This document shows, one piece after another, positions 21,458 to 29,052 of a DNA stretch of 64,000 bases. The position numbers were made by a program, and so were the translations under genes. The DNA is from an uncultured Desulfovibrio sp. (GTDB lineage Bacteria; Desulfobacterota; Desulfovibrionia; Desulfovibrionales; Desulfovibrionaceae): NCBI GenBank assembly GCA_913063155.1, contig CAJXYU010000001.1, positions 620,001-684,000 on the forward strand, given 5' to 3'. The stretch's first letter is position 1; the number at the start of each line of letters is the position of its first letter. The notes below the pieces were generated by a model. That model had not been told where the DNA came from and searched no databases. It was given only the letters and a program-made list of their open reading frames with translations.

Positions 21458-22933
21458 ATGGACTCGCTTCCAGTCTGGAAGCTGGCGCTGGTCATTCTTT
21501 TTCCTTTGAGCATCGCCTACGGACTGCGCTTCCTCGTTGAGCGGCAATATGTACTGAAAGCGCCGCAAATCCGCCGTTCAGCCCGGCAGTTCCAACTCGA
21601 CTTCGGCCTTTTTTGCCTTGCAGGCTTGACCATGGCCTTCATTCTGTTTTTCTCGTTCGGTTTTCCACTTGTCCTCAGCGGCTTCAAATTGACTTTCGGC
21701 ATGGCCACCCTGGGTCTGTTCACCGGGTTCGACATGGCTCTTGCCAGGGAGCGAAGCGCAATCCTGCATTCCCTGAAGTTCGGGGGAGCAACCCGCCCGC
21801 CACGAGAATTTTCCCCCATGACCCGGCGTTTCTCCCTCGTAGCCATCCTGACCCTCCTGCTGATCACGGCCATACTGCTCCTGGTGCTTTTACGCGACTT
21901 CCATTGGCTGGCCTCCCAGGCTGTAACCACTGAGACCATCGGCAAACTCAGCAACTCCGTCTTGATTGAGGTTCTCTTCGTCATGGGCGTGCTCATGGCA
22001 CAGGTGGTCAACCTCGTCGTGTCCTGGGCGAAAAACCTGAGGCTGCTCTTTGAGAACCAAACCGATGTGCTCACCCGAGTCAGCCAGGGCAGCCTGGAGA
22101 GGCTGGTGCCGGTGGCGACCCACGACGAACTGGGGTTCATCGCCGGACATACCAACGCCATGATCGCCAAACTTCGGGAAGGGCTCAGAATGCAACAGGG
22201 GCTTAAAATCGCCCAAGAGGTGCAGCGCAATTTCCTGCCTAAAACAGCCCCGGAAATCCCCGGGCTGGAGATAGCCGGAACCAGTCGCTACTGTGACGAA
22301 ACCGGCGGCGACTTCTACGATTATGTGCCCTGCGACGAAGATGCCTGCGGGAGAACCGCCATTGTGGTGGGTGACGTGGTCGGGCACGGAGTGGGGGCTG
22401 CCCTGCTCATGGCTTCGGCCCGGGCCATGATCCAGCAGGGAGCGTCACGACCCGGGAGCGCTTCGGCCAACATCACGCACGCCAACCGACGCCTGAGCAG
22501 GGACACCATGGGCACGGGCCGGTTCCTGACCCTTTTCTTCCTGGACATCGACCCCGTTGCCGAACACATGTGCTGGGTCAATGCAGGTCACCCGCCCGCC
22601 TTGCTCTATGACCTGGGACGCGACACTTTTGAACGGCTGGCAGGAAGTGGAGACATTCCCCTGGGAGTGGACGTGGAATGGCGTTACAGCGAACATGAGA
22701 CGCCCCGGCTCACCCCCGGCCGGCTGCTGTTCATCGCTACGGATGGAGTATGGGAGGCGCGCAATGCAGACAAGGAAATGTACGGCACGGAACGTTTCAA
22801 AAGAATCGTGAGAAAAAACGCACAAAAAAACGCGCAGGAAATCCTGCGCGCTGTCATGACTTCAATTGACGCTTTCCAGGATGGAGCACCTCTGGACGAC
22901 GACATCACCCTGGTGGTTCTCAAGGGCATATGA
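21458..22933 (+). CDS. Membrane-bound SpoIIE/RsbU-type PP2C phosphatase with HAMP-like linker
   Basis: This 491-residue protein has an N-terminal membrane region with four or five helices, a HAMP-like linker near 200-245 ('VLTRVSQGSLERLVPVATHD'), and a C-terminal PP2C domain. Metal ligands are in 'DETGGDFYDY', 'VVGDVVGHGVGAALLM', 'FIATDGVWEARN' and 'LDDDITLVVL'. RsbU-type phosphatases dephosphorylate STAS-domain anti-anti-sigma factors; a STAS gene converges from the other side with 3 bases between. The ATG at 21458 lacks a good ribosome site; GGAGG lies 16 bases ahead. The gene is divergent from the PqqD-like operon. Confidence 0.88.
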   Translation: MDSLPVWKLALVILFPLSIAYGLRFLVERQYVLKAPQIRRSARQFQLDFGLFCLAGLTMAFILFFSFGFPLVLSGFKLTFGMATLGLFTGFDMALARERSAILHSLKFGGATRPPREFSPMTRRFSLVAILTLLLITAILLLVLLRDFHWLASQAVTTETIGKLSNSVLIEVLFVMGVLMAQVVNLVVSWAKNLRLLFENQTDVLTRVSQGSLERLVPVATHDELGFIAGHTNAMIAKLREGLRMQQGLKIAQEVQRNFLPKTAPEIPGLEIAGTSRYCDETGGDFYDYVPCDEDACGRTAIVVGDVVGHGVGAALLMASARAMIQQGASRPGSASANITHANRRLSRDTMGTGRFLTLFFLDIDPVAEHMCWVNAGHPPALLYDLGRDTFERLAGSGDIPLGVDVEWRYSEHETPRLTPGRLLFIATDGVWEARNADKEMYGTERFKRIVRKNAQKNAQEILRAVMTSIDAFQDGAPLDDDITLVVLKGI

Positions 22934-22936
22934 CAG

Positions 22937-23269
22937 TTAGAGGCCGGTCAACGCCGCCCCCCGGGAAGGAAACATGGAAAAAATCTTGTCGTAACCCGAC
23001 ACCTCGAACACCTCTTGAATATAGTCTTTCACTCCGCAAATGGCGACCTTGCCGGACGACTTTTTGAGCCGCTGATAGGCCAATACCAGCACACGAAGCC
23101 CGGAGCTGTTGATGTAATCCAAATCCGTAAAATCAAACACCAGACTCTGGGCCCCGCCTTCCAAAAGGGAAACGACCTTTTCTTCAAGCGCCTGAGTGCC
23201 GTCGGCATCCAGGCTCCCTTCCACATGCAGAATCGTGATGCCGTCCTGCTTAATCTCAGCAACTCCCAC
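22937..23269 (-). CDS. STAS-domain anti-sigma factor antagonist
   Basis: The protein has 110 residues from the GTG at 23269, which has GGAGG at a 7-base spacing. A longer reading from 23299 would overlap the upstream gene and lacks such a site. The STAS fold is clear: 'GITILHVEGSLDADGTQALE', then the phospho-acceptor serine in 'DYINSSGLRVLVLAY' and 'GKVAICGV'. Phosphorylation by an RsbW-like kinase inactivates it and a PP2C phosphatase restores it. The kinase and a phosphatase are fused in the gene just upstream, 17 bases away. Confidence 0.92.
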   Translation of the reverse strand: MGVAEIKQDGITILHVEGSLDADGTQALEEKVVSLLEGGAQSLVFDFTDLDYINSSGLRVLVLAYQRLKKSSGKVAICGVKDYIQEVFEVSGYDKIFSMFPSRGAALTGL

Positions 23270-23286
23270 GTCGCCACCTCCATGAA

Positions 23287-25887
23287 CTAACACGTGCATT
23301 CTTCATTTAACATTTTTTCAAGGGTCAGGATATTCTTTCCGTTCTCCCGCTTATAATGCAGGCAGTTGACCAGTTTCTTGACTATATGGATTCCCATGCC
23401 GCCGACTTGGCGATCCCGCTCATCCAGAGGGGTATTCAGTTCCGGCAAGGGCGCTTCAAGAATGTTGAAAGGTTCCGCATCATCCTCGATCCGCAAACGG
23501 ATCATGGTGCCGTCCGTGCCTATGCTTACATCAATGGGATGCTCATCCATATCCGAATAGCCATAGGATATGATATTGGTGATCAACTCATCGAGAACCA
23601 GGGTCAGGTTGAACACCATCTTTCCGGGGAAATTGTGCTTACGACAGAACTCTTCCACCTTGGGACGGAAGATTTGAAAACACTTCTGTTTGTTGGTCAG
23701 CCTGAAGGAAAAGGTATCCATTTTCTTTCCATCCCGGTTACCGACCCCGTCCCCTGTCCGGCGCATGACGACAACGGTAATGTCGTCCACCTGCTCGCCC
23801 CCGCCAATAAATGCGTCCACGGTCTCAAAAATAACCGCTTGAAGCTCTGCAGCCTTTTTATCCGCATTTTCCCGGATGATTGCAAGCAGCCGTTCCTTAC
23901 CGAACATTTCTCCTTGAACGTTATGCGCTTCCCAGGCGCCGTCCGTGGCAATGACGACGATACTGCCCCGAGGGATGGCCCCGTCGCATGCCTCGAAATT
24001 GGTGTCCGGACAAATCCCCAATGGCAGTCCGTCTCCCATGAGCTCCTCGAAAGTATCCGTGCCGGGATGATAGACGATGGCCGGATCATGCCCGGCTCTT
24101 ACCCAGCGAATCCTGTCCGAATCCGGCAGAAACTGCAGGTAGAACAGAGTCAGAAAACGCCCGGAACCCTCCAGGTCTTCGTTGAGCTGCAGGTTGGCCA
24201 TGGCCACCCGTCTGTTCAGCGGCATGTGCGCGCCGGACAAACCATGCAGCAAAGCCCGGGCCGAAGACATGAGCAAGGCAGACGGGACACCGTGACCAGT
24301 CACATCTCCCACCACCACCGCATGCGCCGGTCCCTCGACGCCACTGACCGTCAGATAATCATAGTAATCACCACCGGTCTGGTCGCAATAGACGATACCA
24401 CCGGAGATATCCCAACCGGGAATATCAGGTTGCTCTTTGGGGAGCAGATGCGCCTGGACAGTGCGGGCCAGTTCCAGATCGCGTCGAATTTTCAGATGTT
24501 CCTTGAGCTTCGGACCAACCTCGTTGATGGTCCGAATAAGATCGTCCCGTTCATCGCCGGTCCAGGAGTCGATGCGCACATCGAAATCTCCTTCCCCTAT
24601 GCGTCGGGCCGCATTGCTGATGGCCAATAAAGGTTTCGTGCTGGACCGGGCCCAGAACCACCCCACAATAGCCGCCATCAGGATAACACCCAGCGCGCCC
24701 ACACCAACATAGTTCCGCCACTGATCAAAAAATTCGTTCATACTGCCCACGATGGCATCCGGAATCTCGGCTACGGCTCTTTCGGGGACGATGATCAGAT
24801 AGGTATAATCCGGTTTTGATGCAAAGGCCCAGACCGAGTCCACCCCCCGGTACGGCATACGCATGGTGCCTGAGTCTTTTTCCCGCACATCACGCAGAAG
24901 GGCGGCGAATCTCACTGTATCGCTTGAGGATAGCCACTCGGTATCGATGGGCGTCATCCAATGCTGGCCACCCCTGGCATAATCCATCTGGGCAATAATG
25001 CGCAGTCCCGGGGCGGCCGTTTCCGGATGATCTTCACGCAAAAGCAGAAACGGTTTTTGATCGCTTCCCCATTCCGGGGCGACCATTGTCTGCAACAGGA
25101 TGTCCTGCATGAGCAGATCCACCACCGCCACGCCAAGAACCTTACCATGCTTGTCCCAAAGGACATGACCGACGCTGGCCACGACCTGCTTGCTCGAGGG
25201 ATCGACATGGGGCATGGACCACACAGCACCGGAAGAACGGCGCATATGTCTGTACCAGGAGGTCTGACGGGGGTCGAAGTGGGGCGGAGTCCCCCCATGG
25301 GCCGGATACACCGCACTGACGCCGGAAGCCAGGTAGACATGTACCCACCAGGCTTTTCCATCCAGATCCTCATAAATGGTGCGCATGATCCTTTCCAGAG
25401 AAGCCAGCCATTGAATATCCTTCTCCGCGGCTCTCCGATCCACTCCTGACGCCAAGGATATGGCCACCTCTCCGAAATTCACGGGCAGGGGACGCTCACG
25501 GCCGGACATGGTCCTGCGCTTGTACTTGTCATCCTCGACAGTTCCTGTGGGGCCGGGGCCACCTCCATGCATGCCGAACGCGGAGGTGAACAATGCGTCT
25601 TTTCCGATGCCCCTATCTTCGCCACGAAGCCGCAGGGCCTCCATGGCCAGCACCCGTGCCGACTGGCCGTAGGCCATGCCCTGATTCTCCAGAATCTCGG
25701 CCGCTCCCCGGGCGGTCTCCTCGAGACCGTAGCTCATGAGCTCGAGAATGTCCTGCCGGGCCACTTCCGAGGCTTCCCCCAGACGGCTGCGACTGACCTT
25801 GCTGACAACAGTGCGCATGAGCAGCATGGGGGCCAGGCTGAAAACCAGCAAGACAAGGAAAACTTTGGTGCGAAAACTCATGCGCAT
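23287..25887 (-). CDS. Cache-HAMP-PP2C phosphatase fused to RsbW-like serine kinase
   Basis: The protein has 866 residues. A membrane helix near 8-25 leads to a large periplasmic Cache-type sensor (about 30-385; 'ASGVDRRAAEKDIQWLASLE'), a second helix near 395-415, HAMP (about 416-470), a PP2C domain (about 480-700) with 'DQTGGDYYDY', 'VVGDVTGHGVPSALLM' and 'VIATDGAWEAHN', and a C-terminal HATPase (about 725-860) with N-box 'LVLDELITNIISYGY' and 'QVGGMGIHIVKKL'. The fusion carries opposing phosphatase and anti-sigma kinase activities for the STAS protein encoded downstream. It probably couples an external ligand to partner switching; no sigma factor gene is adjacent. Confidence 0.9.
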   Translation of the reverse strand: MRMSFRTKVFLVLLVFSLAPMLLMRTVVSKVSRSRLGEASEVARQDILELMSYGLEETARGAAEILENQGMAYGQSARVLAMEALRLRGEDRGIGKDALFTSAFGMHGGGPGPTGTVEDDKYKRRTMSGRERPLPVNFGEVAISLASGVDRRAAEKDIQWLASLERIMRTIYEDLDGKAWWVHVYLASGVSAVYPAHGGTPPHFDPRQTSWYRHMRRSSGAVWSMPHVDPSSKQVVASVGHVLWDKHGKVLGVAVVDLLMQDILLQTMVAPEWGSDQKPFLLLREDHPETAAPGLRIIAQMDYARGGQHWMTPIDTEWLSSSDTVRFAALLRDVREKDSGTMRMPYRGVDSVWAFASKPDYTYLIIVPERAVAEIPDAIVGSMNEFFDQWRNYVGVGALGVILMAAIVGWFWARSSTKPLLAISNAARRIGEGDFDVRIDSWTGDERDDLIRTINEVGPKLKEHLKIRRDLELARTVQAHLLPKEQPDIPGWDISGGIVYCDQTGGDYYDYLTVSGVEGPAHAVVVGDVTGHGVPSALLMSSARALLHGLSGAHMPLNRRVAMANLQLNEDLEGSGRFLTLFYLQFLPDSDRIRWVRAGHDPAIVYHPGTDTFEELMGDGLPLGICPDTNFEACDGAIPRGSIVVIATDGAWEAHNVQGEMFGKERLLAIIRENADKKAAELQAVIFETVDAFIGGGEQVDDITVVVMRRTGDGVGNRDGKKMDTFSFRLTNKQKCFQIFRPKVEEFCRKHNFPGKMVFNLTLVLDELITNIISYGYSDMDEHPIDVSIGTDGTMIRLRIEDDAEPFNILEAPLPELNTPLDERDRQVGGMGIHIVKKLVNCLHYKRENGKNILTLEKMLNEECTC

Positions 25888-26033: not shown

Positions 26034-28556
26034 ATGCCATCCACCTCCGAATATACCCCGGTCACAAAAAAATCCATTTACTCCTGGGTATTTTACAAAA
26101 ATACACACTTACAGCTCCTGGTTGTAGGCATCATCCTGGTCACCGTGGCCCTGCGCCTCATCCCGCTGGAGATGTCCAAACGCATCATCAACGAAGCCGT
26201 GGGAATGCGTGACCTGCACAGGCTCTACCTGTATTGCGGCATCTACATCGTCAGCGTCGTTCTGGCCAGCGTACTCAAGATGGTCATCAACCTGCTGCAA
26301 AACTTCATCGGGGAACGCACTCTCAAAGTCCTGCGCGAGCGGCTCTATGCCCATGCATTATCCTTACCGCTGAATTTCTACCGCAAAACTTCGCCCGGCC
26401 AAGTCATCTCCTACATGATTACGGAAATGATTCCCGTGGCCAACTTCATCGGCTCGGCTGTGGCCGTCCCGGCAGTCAGCCTGCTCACCTTTCTGGCCTA
26501 TTTCATCTACCTCTTCTACCTGAACCCATATCTGAGTCTCATGGCCGTGGCCATCTACACGGCGGAGGTATTTGTCATCCCGCCCATTCAAAAAAAATTC
26601 AACAAGGCCAATCGGGAACGCATCGACAACACTCAAAAGGTTTCCGGAATCATCGGCGAGGCTATCTCGGGGGTGCATGAAGTCCACTCCAACGCCTCCA
26701 TTCCTCTGGAGCGCAACAGATACCGCAGAGCGCTGCAGAAACTGTACAGGTCCACCCTGGTCATGAACGCCTACAAATACGGCATCAAGTTTTCCAACAA
26801 TTTTTTCCAGAGCCTGGGACCGTTTTCCCTGCTGCTCATCGGCGGTTACCTGACCATCAAAGGACGCTTCGACCTCGGTGCGCTCTTCGCTTTCCAAGCG
26901 GCCTATGACAAGCTCTATCAGCCATGGAAGGATCTCATGGAATTCTGGCAGATCTACATTGACAGTTCGGTACGCTACAAGCAGGTCATGGACGCCTTCG
27001 ACATAGAACCCGACCACGAACTGGAAGCCAAAGGCAGGGCCCCTTATCATCTGGACGGCGACATTTCGGTCAGACATCTTACCTATGCGGTGGGCAGCAA
27101 CATAAAGCTCCTGGACGACGTTTCCCTCGAGATCGGGGAAGGAGAACACGTGGCTCTGGTCGGTTTTTCAGGCAGCGGCAAATCCACCCTGGCTCTTTGC
27201 ATCGCCCAGCTCTACAAGTACACGGGCGGCAGTGTGCGGATTGGCGGCCATGAGGTGGCGGAGCTGTCAAAACAGGATATGGCCCACAACCTGGGCATGG
27301 TGGCCCAGCACCCCTTCATTTTCAACGGGACGGTCTGGGACAATCTCATGTACTCCTGCGACGCCCTGACCTTACAGGGAGGAGGTTGCGCCCGGAATGG
27401 CCGCCCTCCGACTCTGGACAAGGTCATCGAAGTCGCCCAACAGGTGGGACTGTTTCTGGACGTGCTCAGCTTCGGTCTGCGTTCCACCATCGAACCGGAT
27501 GAATATCCGGACCTGGCGAAGGCCATCATCCATGCCCGCCATGAATTCAAGGCGGAACACGGACAGGATCTCGCCAATGACATCGAGATCTATACTCACG
27601 ACTCCTATGTCTACTACGGCAGTGTGGCCGCCAACATCATCACAGGCGCACCGCTCAAGGACAATTACAATGCGGCACCCCTGCACGAATGGCCCTTGTT
27701 CAAGGATTTTCTCGTACGCCAGGAACTCATGAACCCGTTGGTCGAACTCGGCACGACTTTGACCCGACGTGTGGTGGATATCTTCAGTTCCATCGGCGAC
27801 GTGCCAGAAGAACTCTACAAGGAAAGCCCCATCAGGCAGGAGGACTTCGAACAATACAAATCCATTGCCGACCATCTGGAACGCGGCTTGAAACCCACAG
27901 AAGAAGAAGTCGCCCTGCTCCTTAAACTGGCTCTGAACTGTATTCCCGGTGTACACAAATTAGGCAGCATTAGTGACGAACTGGCCCGCATGATCGTGGA
28001 AGCACGAACCCCCTTCCGCAAAATGATGCAGGAGCGCGACCCCCTTGCCTTCGCATTTCTCGACGAGGACGAGTACATGCGCGGCCGCAGCATCCAGGAC
28101 AACATCGTCTTCGGGCGAGTCAAACCGGACAGCGCAGGCGCCGAGGAACGCATCAACCAAGGCATCATGCAGCTGCTGATCATGGAAGGCGTACTAGAGC
28201 AGGTGGTGGAAATGGGATTCCACTTCGAAGTGGGCAGTATGGGCGATCGCCTTTCGGGCGGTCAGCGGCAGAAAATCGCCCTGGCCAGAATATTCCTCAA
28301 GACCCCGCACATCGTCATACTGGACGAGGCCACGGCAGCCCTGGACAATGCTTCCCAAAAGAGAGTCCAGAGCGTCATCACCCGAAAATGGAAAGGAATC
28401 AACACGGTGGTGGCGGTCATCCACAGGCTGGACATGCTGGTGCATTACGACAGGGTCGCGGTGCTTAAAGCCGGCAAAATCATAGAACAAGGCACGTACG
28501 AGCAACTTATCGACAAAAAAGGAGCACTCTATGAGCTCGTTTACGGAAAACAATAG
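26034..28556 (+). CDS. ABC exporter half-transporter with greatly expanded nucleotide-binding domain
   Basis: This 840-residue protein has an N-terminal six-helix type-IV exporter membrane domain (about 25-320), with 'LPLNFYRKTSPGQVISYM' typical of that fold. The ATPase follows: Walker A 'GFSGSGKST' near 377, Q-loop Gln425, signature 'LSGGQ' at 740-744 and Walker B 'IVILDEATAALD'. Normally about 55 residues separate Q-loop and signature; here 315 do. The extra part contains two further copies of the post-Q-loop motif (G432, G529 and G684 in 'FNGTVWDNL', 'YYGSVAANI' and 'RGRSIQDNI'). No stops interrupt it and codon use is ordinary, so it is not a frameshift. The substrate is unknown. Confidence 0.85.
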   Translation: MPSTSEYTPVTKKSIYSWVFYKNTHLQLLVVGIILVTVALRLIPLEMSKRIINEAVGMRDLHRLYLYCGIYIVSVVLASVLKMVINLLQNFIGERTLKVLRERLYAHALSLPLNFYRKTSPGQVISYMITEMIPVANFIGSAVAVPAVSLLTFLAYFIYLFYLNPYLSLMAVAIYTAEVFVIPPIQKKFNKANRERIDNTQKVSGIIGEAISGVHEVHSNASIPLERNRYRRALQKLYRSTLVMNAYKYGIKFSNNFFQSLGPFSLLLIGGYLTIKGRFDLGALFAFQAAYDKLYQPWKDLMEFWQIYIDSSVRYKQVMDAFDIEPDHELEAKGRAPYHLDGDISVRHLTYAVGSNIKLLDDVSLEIGEGEHVALVGFSGSGKSTLALCIAQLYKYTGGSVRIGGHEVAELSKQDMAHNLGMVAQHPFIFNGTVWDNLMYSCDALTLQGGGCARNGRPPTLDKVIEVAQQVGLFLDVLSFGLRSTIEPDEYPDLAKAIIHARHEFKAEHGQDLANDIEIYTHDSYVYYGSVAANIITGAPLKDNYNAAPLHEWPLFKDFLVRQELMNPLVELGTTLTRRVVDIFSSIGDVPEELYKESPIRQEDFEQYKSIADHLERGLKPTEEEVALLLKLALNCIPGVHKLGSISDELARMIVEARTPFRKMMQERDPLAFAFLDEDEYMRGRSIQDNIVFGRVKPDSAGAEERINQGIMQLLIMEGVLEQVVEMGFHFEVGSMGDRLSGGQRQKIALARIFLKTPHIVILDEATAALDNASQKRVQSVITRKWKGINTVVAVIHRLDMLVHYDRVAVLKAGKIIEQGTYEQLIDKKGALYELVYGKQ

Positions 28557-29052
28557 CCAGCTATGCTGCGAACACGACAGGATCATGGATATCCTGCGGT
28601 CCATTCCCCATTTCAGCGAGTTGCAAGTGGATTCCCTCAAGGTCATGGCGCTTGTCTGCAACCACATGAATTATCAGCCCGGGGCCAATGTTTTCGGAGC
28701 CGGAGACATCGACAACAAGGCATACTACATTGTCGAGGGAACCGCCGAAGTCATCCGGGCCACCGACCAGGGTGAAGTCGTCGTCGGCGCCTTTGCGCAG
28801 GGGGCCTTTATCGGCGCACTCGCTCTGCTGTCCGATGTGAAACGCCTCTTTTTCCTTCGCGCCAAAACTCCGCTCAAATGCCTGATCATCCCGCGAAAAA
28901 AATTAAGCCAGACCCTTGGACAGTCCGGTAACGGCTTCCAGGTGTTTCTAAAAAGCATCGCCGCCAGCATTGTAGCCTGGGAAGAAGTCCAGCTCCGTTC
29001 CGGAACAAGCATCAAGAGCAGCCCGGGAGGCGCAGGTGTGAGCCTGCTCTGA
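28531..29052 (+). CDS. Cyclic nucleotide-binding domain protein
   Basis: This 173-residue protein is a cNMP-binding (Crp-type beta-roll) domain: 'IPHFSELQVDSLKVMALVC', 'YYIVEGTAEVIRATDQGEVV' and 'GAFIGALALLSDVKR'. The usual phosphate-binding 'RSA' is replaced by 'KRLFFLRAKT', so ligand binding may be altered. There is no DNA-binding HTH behind it, only a helical tail. It overlaps the ABC transporter gene by 26 bases and has AAGGAG at good spacing, so translation is coupled. It likely regulates the transporter post-translationally. Confidence 0.85.
   Translation: MSSFTENNSQLCCEHDRIMDILRSIPHFSELQVDSLKVMALVCNHMNYQPGANVFGAGDIDNKAYYIVEGTAEVIRATDQGEVVVGAFAQGAFIGALALLSDVKRLFFLRAKTPLKCLIIPRKKLSQTLGQSGNGFQVFLKSIAASIVAWEEVQLRSGTSIKSSPGGAGVSLL

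Follow-up and report, generated by a model that had tools for sequence, protein, structure and literature searches.

Background

The type IV ATP-binding cassette (ABC) exporters, which have the type I exporter fold and include MsbA, Sav1866, ComA and PCAT1, combine a membrane domain with a nucleotide-binding domain (NBD) carrying Walker A, Q-loop, signature, Walker B and H-loop. The exporter analyzed here is encoded in a stretch of 64,000 nucleotides (the window) from an uncultured Desulfovibrio sp. (contig CAJXYU010000001.1) and shares all these elements. Unlike MsbA, Sav1866, ComA and PCAT1, it contains about 250 extra residues, consisting largely of two additional copies of the helical segment that follows the Q-loop. 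Large insertions between Q-loop and signature, consisting of a coiled coil or other domains, are a feature of ABC ATPases of the SMC/Rad50 and UvrA type, which are not transporters. The insert of the window protein occupies the same topological place but is built of helical subdomain copies. Where nucleotide-site degeneracy occurs in type I ABC exporters, it usually affects one of the two sites. The alphaproteobacterial relatives of the window protein resemble such degenerate exporters in having lost catalytic residues, and differ from them in that the motifs of these single-chain half-transporters are altered throughout and in that the tripled segment is present.

Judging from the available part of its description, the nearest described exporter with a cyclic-nucleotide-binding (cNMP) fold domain in the literature searched is HetC of Nostoc, a PCAT exporter whose N-terminal cNMP domain is needed for function and is reported to bind guanosine tetraphosphate (ppGpp) in vitro (PMC10986499). 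Like HetC, the system described here joins an exporter to a cNMP-fold domain; unlike it, HetC has its cNMP domain at the N-terminus and possesses a C39 peptidase domain, and no tripled segment is mentioned in that part of the paper (PMC10986499). No description of a tripled Q-loop/helical build was found in the literature searched.

Architecture of the exporter

The gene and the elements of its NBD are organised as follows:

26034..28556, + strand: ABC exporter of 840 residues, membrane domain and NBD with tripled Q-loop/helical segment (open reading frame, Pfam)
27162..27185, + strand: Walker A GFSGSGKS, residues 377-384 (K383 conservation)
27279..27503, + strand: copy 1, true Q-loop Gln425, FNGTVWDNL and two helices, residues 416-490 (hhalign, AlphaFold2)
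27504..27794, + strand: copy 2, helix with invariant R502, strand 517-519, YYGSVAANI (N534) and helices up to residue 587 (hhalign)
27795..27971, + strand: non-repeated helical stretch separating copies 2 and 3, residues 588-646 (no match to the ordinary segment)
27972..28250, + strand: copy 3, helix with invariant R658, strand 673-675, RGRSIQDNI (N690) and helices running into the signature, residues 647-739 (hhalign)
28251..28265, + strand: true signature LSGGQ, residues 740-744 (conserved in 325 of 326 proteins outside the alphaproteobacterial branch)
28311..28331, + strand: Walker B, residues 760-766, with D764 and E765 (motif conservation)

The membrane domain matches PF00664 over residues 33-289 (E 1.9e-28) and the NBD matches PF00005 in two stretches (E 9.5e-28). 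All the ABC exporter motifs were found: Walker A, the Q-loop Gln, LSGGQ, the Walker B Asp-Glu and the H-loop His. The first-pass annotation had counted 315 residues between Gln425 and the LSGGQ at 740, against about 55 in normal exporters, in a continuous frame. We verified this numbering in the window protein, found 26034-28556 to be open with no internal stop, and measured the equivalent span as 56 to 59 residues in seven ordinary exporters encoded by that genome. Gln425 sits in VAQHP (starting at residue 423), and the three motifs FNGTVWDNL, YYGSVAANI and RGRSIQDNI start at residues 430, 527 and 683, with their glycines at 432, 529 and 684. In place of the single helical subdomain of about 55 residues, the window protein thus holds 315 residues comprising three homologous copies: the helical (alpha) subdomain is tandemly triplicated inside the NBD, the true Q-loop opening copy 1 and the true signature closing copy 3.

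Two known identities were considered for the protein and rejected. MsbA (TIGR02203) is its top NCBIfam model, with 286.8 bits against a curated cut-off of 602 for the lipid A exporter. The SMC_N family (PF02463) gave 26 bits against a cut-off of 40 (E 7e-6), and the insert is predicted to form many helices of at most 22 residues with short strands; this weak match may reflect the position of the insertion, which is topologically that of SMC/Rad50. The window protein belongs to the ABC exporters, and the build of its NBD is new.

Homology of the three copies

The copies were compared with a profile of the Q-loop/helical segment of the seven ordinary exporters using hhalign. When the signature was omitted from both sides, this profile matched copy 1 with a probability of 97.7% (E 2.5e-12, residues 405-486), copy 2 with 94.8% (E 5e-8, residues 505-590) and copy 3 with 86.5% (E 5e-6, residues 660-735). 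Including the signature yielded 97.7% (E 2e-12), 93.8% (E 2e-7) and 97.5% (E 5e-12), respectively, and 30 column shuffles scored at most 22 against real scores of 66, 41 and 62. A profile restricted to the alphaproteobacterial branch gave 97%, 83% and 75% for copies 1, 2 and 3. Control segments from the middle of the insert, the transmembrane domain and the end of the NBD reached at most 1% in both sets, and residues 588-646 did not match the ordinary segment (1.0%).

The copies were also compared with one another. In a profile of 98 sequences, hhalign related copy 2 to copy 3 at 97% (E 6e-11, 82 columns), copy 1 to copy 2 at 76% (E 2e-5) and copy 1 to copy 3 at 41% (E 3e-4, 31 columns); in the alphaproteobacterial branch, copies 2 and 3 aligned with an E-value of 6e-14 and 33% identity. 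When the region 417-442, which comprises the Q-loop and the following GT, was scanned over the 840-residue profile, its two best other matches started at 514 and 670, that is exactly at the other two motifs, and the two best matches of the copy 1 helices within residues 330-840 were the helices of copies 2 and 3. Self-alignment of the window sequence alone, which had been suggested as a check, supported the repeat for copies 2 and 3 (Smith-Waterman z 6.8, a score reached by 0 of 500 shuffles) and for copies 1 and 2 (z 4.4, 1 of 500), and was not significant for copies 1 and 3 (203 of 500). Over 17 sequences, no more than 5 of 500 shuffles reached the real score in 16 cases for copies 2-3, 8 for copies 1-2 and 7 for copies 1-3. 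Since these single-sequence tests are weaker for the pairs involving copy 1, its kinship rests mainly on the profile comparisons. The word "tripled" used in the first-pass annotation is literally right: homology links the three segments both with one another and with the ordinary stretch running from Q-loop to helical subdomain. On these alignments the triplication is real and copy 1 is the most diverged.

Predicted structure

The full-length AlphaFold2 model, built from 98 sequences, has a mean predicted local distance difference test (pLDDT) score of 84, with ten-residue blocks averaging 80 to 97 over residues 431-730. The NBD core is predicted intact, the ComA NBD aligning over 239 of 239 residues at 1.6 Å across residues 338-837 of the model. 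Residues 484-738 modelled alone reached a pLDDT of 88.8 (14 sequences), and their predicted fold gave no convincing match among solved structures. Copy 1 is predicted to contain a strand (420-423) and three helices (434-438, 461-471 and 474-482). Copy 2 comprises a helix (492-509), a strand (517-519), a helix (531-536), a strand (538-540) and a helix from 566; copy 3 comprises a helix (648-668), a strand (673-675), a helix (687-692), a strand (694-696) and a helix from 721. The order and spacing of these predicted elements match between copies 2 and 3, with a period of 155 to 156 residues.

Distribution of the insert and decay of the ATPase motifs

Homologues of the insert were searched with residues 425-745 of the window protein (373 matches), with a distant member (729 matches) and with a paralogue (184 matches). 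The best 120 of each search, which overlap, were taken as relatives and 359 distinct proteins were fetched. Including the window protein itself, the segment equivalent to residues 425-738 measures 310 to 325 residues in 117 proteins of 800-900 residues, and the insert hallmark residues are kept in all 341 aligned proteins of at least 720 residues. Within the phylum of the window, 28 of 395 sampled genomes carry the insert. More than one insert match was found in 7 of these 28 (G155, G181, G296, G391, G410, G108 and G359), so that the family has paralogues; of the three G155 matches, one is a further part of a gene already matched.

Two side observations concern the cysteines of the insert. Behind copy 1, a Y-S-C-x-A-L...Q-G-G-x-C stretch is conserved (residues 442-452, window 27357-27389), with C442 present in 106 and C452 in 69 of the 117 proteins. 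A paralogous subfamily (L079, L080, L081 and L082; P0330 and P0342) has a longer loop ahead of copy 3 with recurring cysteines, at least one in the loop and one just ahead of the copy 3 motif, which might bind a metal or be redox-active.

In a tree of the shared core, the family groups together against eight ordinary exporters (43 of 43 members, support 0.977) and the alphaproteobacterial members form one group (15 of 15, support 1.0). The tripled build arose no later than the divergence of the Desulfobacterota-type from the alphaproteobacterial branch. Outside the latter, and counting the window protein, K383 and Q425 are kept in 326 of 326 proteins, LSGGQ in 325 (the other one being gapped) and H797 in 323 (three gaps). 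All 19 alphaproteobacterial-branch relatives have a changed LSGGQ and another residue in place of Q425. K383 survives in 4 of them, D764 in 3, E765 in 7 and H797 in 3. Ten of the 19 keep none of these five catalytic residues, and the maximum of three is reached in two proteins (P0355 and P0358). The five insert hallmarks N437, N534, N690, R502 and R658, as well as G694, are kept in 19 of 19: the motif Asn is present in all three copies and the helices ahead of copies 2 and 3 each bear an invariant Arg. ATP hydrolysis is probably lost or much reduced in this branch. Of 72,556 plasmid records, 262 gave a match covering at least 80% of the query, mostly from Rhizobium and Sinorhizobium.

The cNMP-fold neighbour

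The ABC gene is followed by a small gene:

28531..29052, + strand: cNMP-fold protein of 173 residues, its start overlapping the end of the ABC gene by 26 bases (PF00027, E 7.8e-15)

The PF00027 score is 55.1 bits, above the gathering score of 27.5. It had been proposed that homologues of similar length be sought beside a cyclic-nucleotide-binding gene, and such loci do recur: an overlapping cNMP-fold gene was found in 23 of 33 relatives' loci, the overlaps being judged from the starts of the longest open reading frames and one locus being ended by the contig end. In most of the alphaproteobacterial relatives inspected, the cNMP-fold gene is adjacent or fused. A PF00027 gene follows the ABC gene in Rhizobium etli and Sinorhizobium meliloti, and the cNMP domain is fused to the ABC protein in P0345, P0359 and Ruegeria (Pfam) and in P0344 and P0352 (precomputed Pfam). 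No fused domain was detected in P0347, P0349, P0353 and P0355, for which the protein sequences alone were seen. The tripled build is frequently accompanied by a small cNMP-fold protein, encoded next to it or fused to it.

CRP-like cyclic AMP-binding domains have a phosphate-binding cassette that contains G-E and R-S/T-A. A domain of this kind was rejected for the window neighbour, in which the cassette reads FIGALALL...KRLF without the canonical Glu. By alignment reading, G-E is present in 2 of 24 Desulfobacterota-type cNMP sequences and R-S/T-A in none of the 24; in the alphaproteobacterial sequences each is present in 6 of 7, Ruegeria being the exception. Decay is reciprocal, affecting the ATPase motifs in the alphaproteobacterial branch and the cNMP pocket in the Desulfobacterota branch.

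Other neighbouring genes

Three genes on the other side of the ABC gene belong to its recurrent surroundings:

23287..25887, - strand: sensor, HAMP, SpoIIE phosphatase and HATPase_c_2 protein, in divergent orientation to the ABC gene, recurrent neighbour (Pfam, neighbourhood)
22937..23299, - strand: STAS-domain protein of the anti-sigma antagonist type, recurrent neighbour (PF01740, E 2.8e-21)
21458..22933, + strand: MASE10 and SpoIIE phosphatase, neighbour in several relatives (Pfam, neighbourhood)

A SpoIIE phosphatase, an HATPase_c_2 kinase and a STAS antagonist, the components of a partner-switching module, are thus encoded by two overlapping genes (22937-25887), and relatives of SpoIIE, HATPase and/or STAS lie nearby in 24 of 33 loci. 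The window genome has only five SpoIIE domains over cut-off, two of them in the window, and four STAS domains. The two different SpoIIE phosphatases lie within 5 kb (window 21458-25887), one of them with its own HATPase_c_2 and an overlapping STAS gene. In Rhizobium etli and Sinorhizobium meliloti, three glycosyltransferase-type genes are located upstream of the ABC gene (L093 4189-7835; L094 2421-6073; Pfam), two of which are annotated redA and redB in R. etli, a hint of a glycan or glycolipid context.

Interpretation

The extra copies could alter coupling or bind a partner, as the first-pass annotation had put it; partner binding or allostery is favoured over a role in hydrolysis itself because ATPase-decayed relatives exist. 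The best overall explanation, to which we give about an even chance, is that the cNMP-fold partner docks on the tripled module, which acts as a gating arm. As is usual, the exporter would function as a homodimer, and on each NBD copies 2 and 3 would form a rigid side arm that docks the cNMP-fold protein. The state of this partner, probably set jointly with the neighbouring SpoIIE/STAS/HATPase switch, would favour or block closure of the NBD dimer, and export would be gated by this control. Members of the alphaproteobacterial branch would have retained the arm and, in most cases, the sensor, and what remains after the probable loss or strong reduction of ATP hydrolysis would be a receptor or scaffold.

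Several observations weigh against the docking arm. Nine of the 33 loci (L022-L028, L083 and L076) keep the insert although their ABC gene is not flanked by a cNMP gene, copies elsewhere not having been sought; they comprise six Pseudodesulfovibrio, one Salidesulfovibrio brasiliensis, one member of the window's genus and L076. Because the ABC gene is kept there without an adjoining cNMP-fold gene, the partner has apparently disappeared or been relocated. In Methylobacterium (L096) no cNMP domain is fused or annotated beside the ABC gene, so that an adjacent cNMP gene is not obligatory. The ligand of the Desulfobacterota-branch cNMP domain is doubtful, since the canonical Glu is absent from 22 of 24 sequences and R-S/T-A from all 24. 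The SpoIIE/STAS link is one of neighbourhood only and is absent in 9 of 33 loci. Finally, P0355 and P0358 retain K383, E765 and H797, so that some of the 19 relatives may still hydrolyse ATP.

A mechanical role, which we consider rather unlikely, would have the extra copies enlarge the interface to the coupling helices or the second NBD and tune the transport cycle, the cNMP protein being incidental or acting elsewhere. The ordinary helical segment contacts the coupling helices of the membrane domain, the insert persists in the nine loci without an adjacent cNMP gene, and the ATPase motifs are intact outside the alphaproteobacterial branch, all of which would fit such a role. However, none of the 19 alphaproteobacterial relatives keeps LSGGQ or more than three of the five catalytic residues, and the hallmarks of the insert are invariant in them; an insert serving only hydrolysis-driven coupling is hard to reconcile with this pattern. 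The same persistence of the arm despite ATPase decay, together with its prediction to fold alone, would suit an oligomerisation platform that links several transporters or tethers them to a membrane or cytoplasmic assembly, independently of small-molecule signalling. We hold this to be quite improbable: the recurrent cNMP-fold neighbour or fusion suggests a regulatory partner.

Two further explanations question the triplication itself. Inter-copy identities are low (6-22%) and copies 1 and 3 are not significantly similar within the window sequence, as would be expected if the insert were an unrelated helical domain with three chance look-alikes of the motif. Yet the ordinary-exporter profile matches all three copies in both branches and not the middle, transmembrane or NBD-end segments, column shuffles fall far below the real scores, and copies 2 and 3 of the alphaproteobacterial branch align at 33% identity; an alignment to one known unrelated domain, named in the first-pass annotation as a refuting outcome, was moreover looked for and not found, residues 443-739 alone giving no Pfam match and the insert no good match to a solved structure. 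Chance resemblance is accordingly very improbable. An assembly error, frameshift or mobile insertion confined to one genome, for which we found no argument, is barely conceivable given the open frame, the near-equal insert length in 117 proteins and the hallmarks kept in 341 of 341.

A more novel reading, with clearly less than an even chance, is that these proteins form a new class of ABC-exporter-derived signalling proteins. Triplication would have created a receptor arm for a cNMP-fold sensor and the two lineages would then have degenerated reciprocally. The Desulfobacterota branch would have kept the ATPase and changed the cNMP pocket; rhizobia, Bosea, Starkeya and the other members of the alphaproteobacterial branch would have kept a canonical-looking pocket and lost the ATPase motifs, the former pump turning into an ATP-independent membrane receptor or scaffold.

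The stretch from Q-loop to signature is the transmission of ABC transporters. A family in which a triplicated module outlives the ATPase motifs offers a direct test of the roles of the helical subdomain apart from hydrolysis, and of how a second protein can control an exporter. It also suggests a possible role for a membrane protein that is common on rhizobial plasmids and whose annotation, in the records examined, goes no further than ABC transporter.
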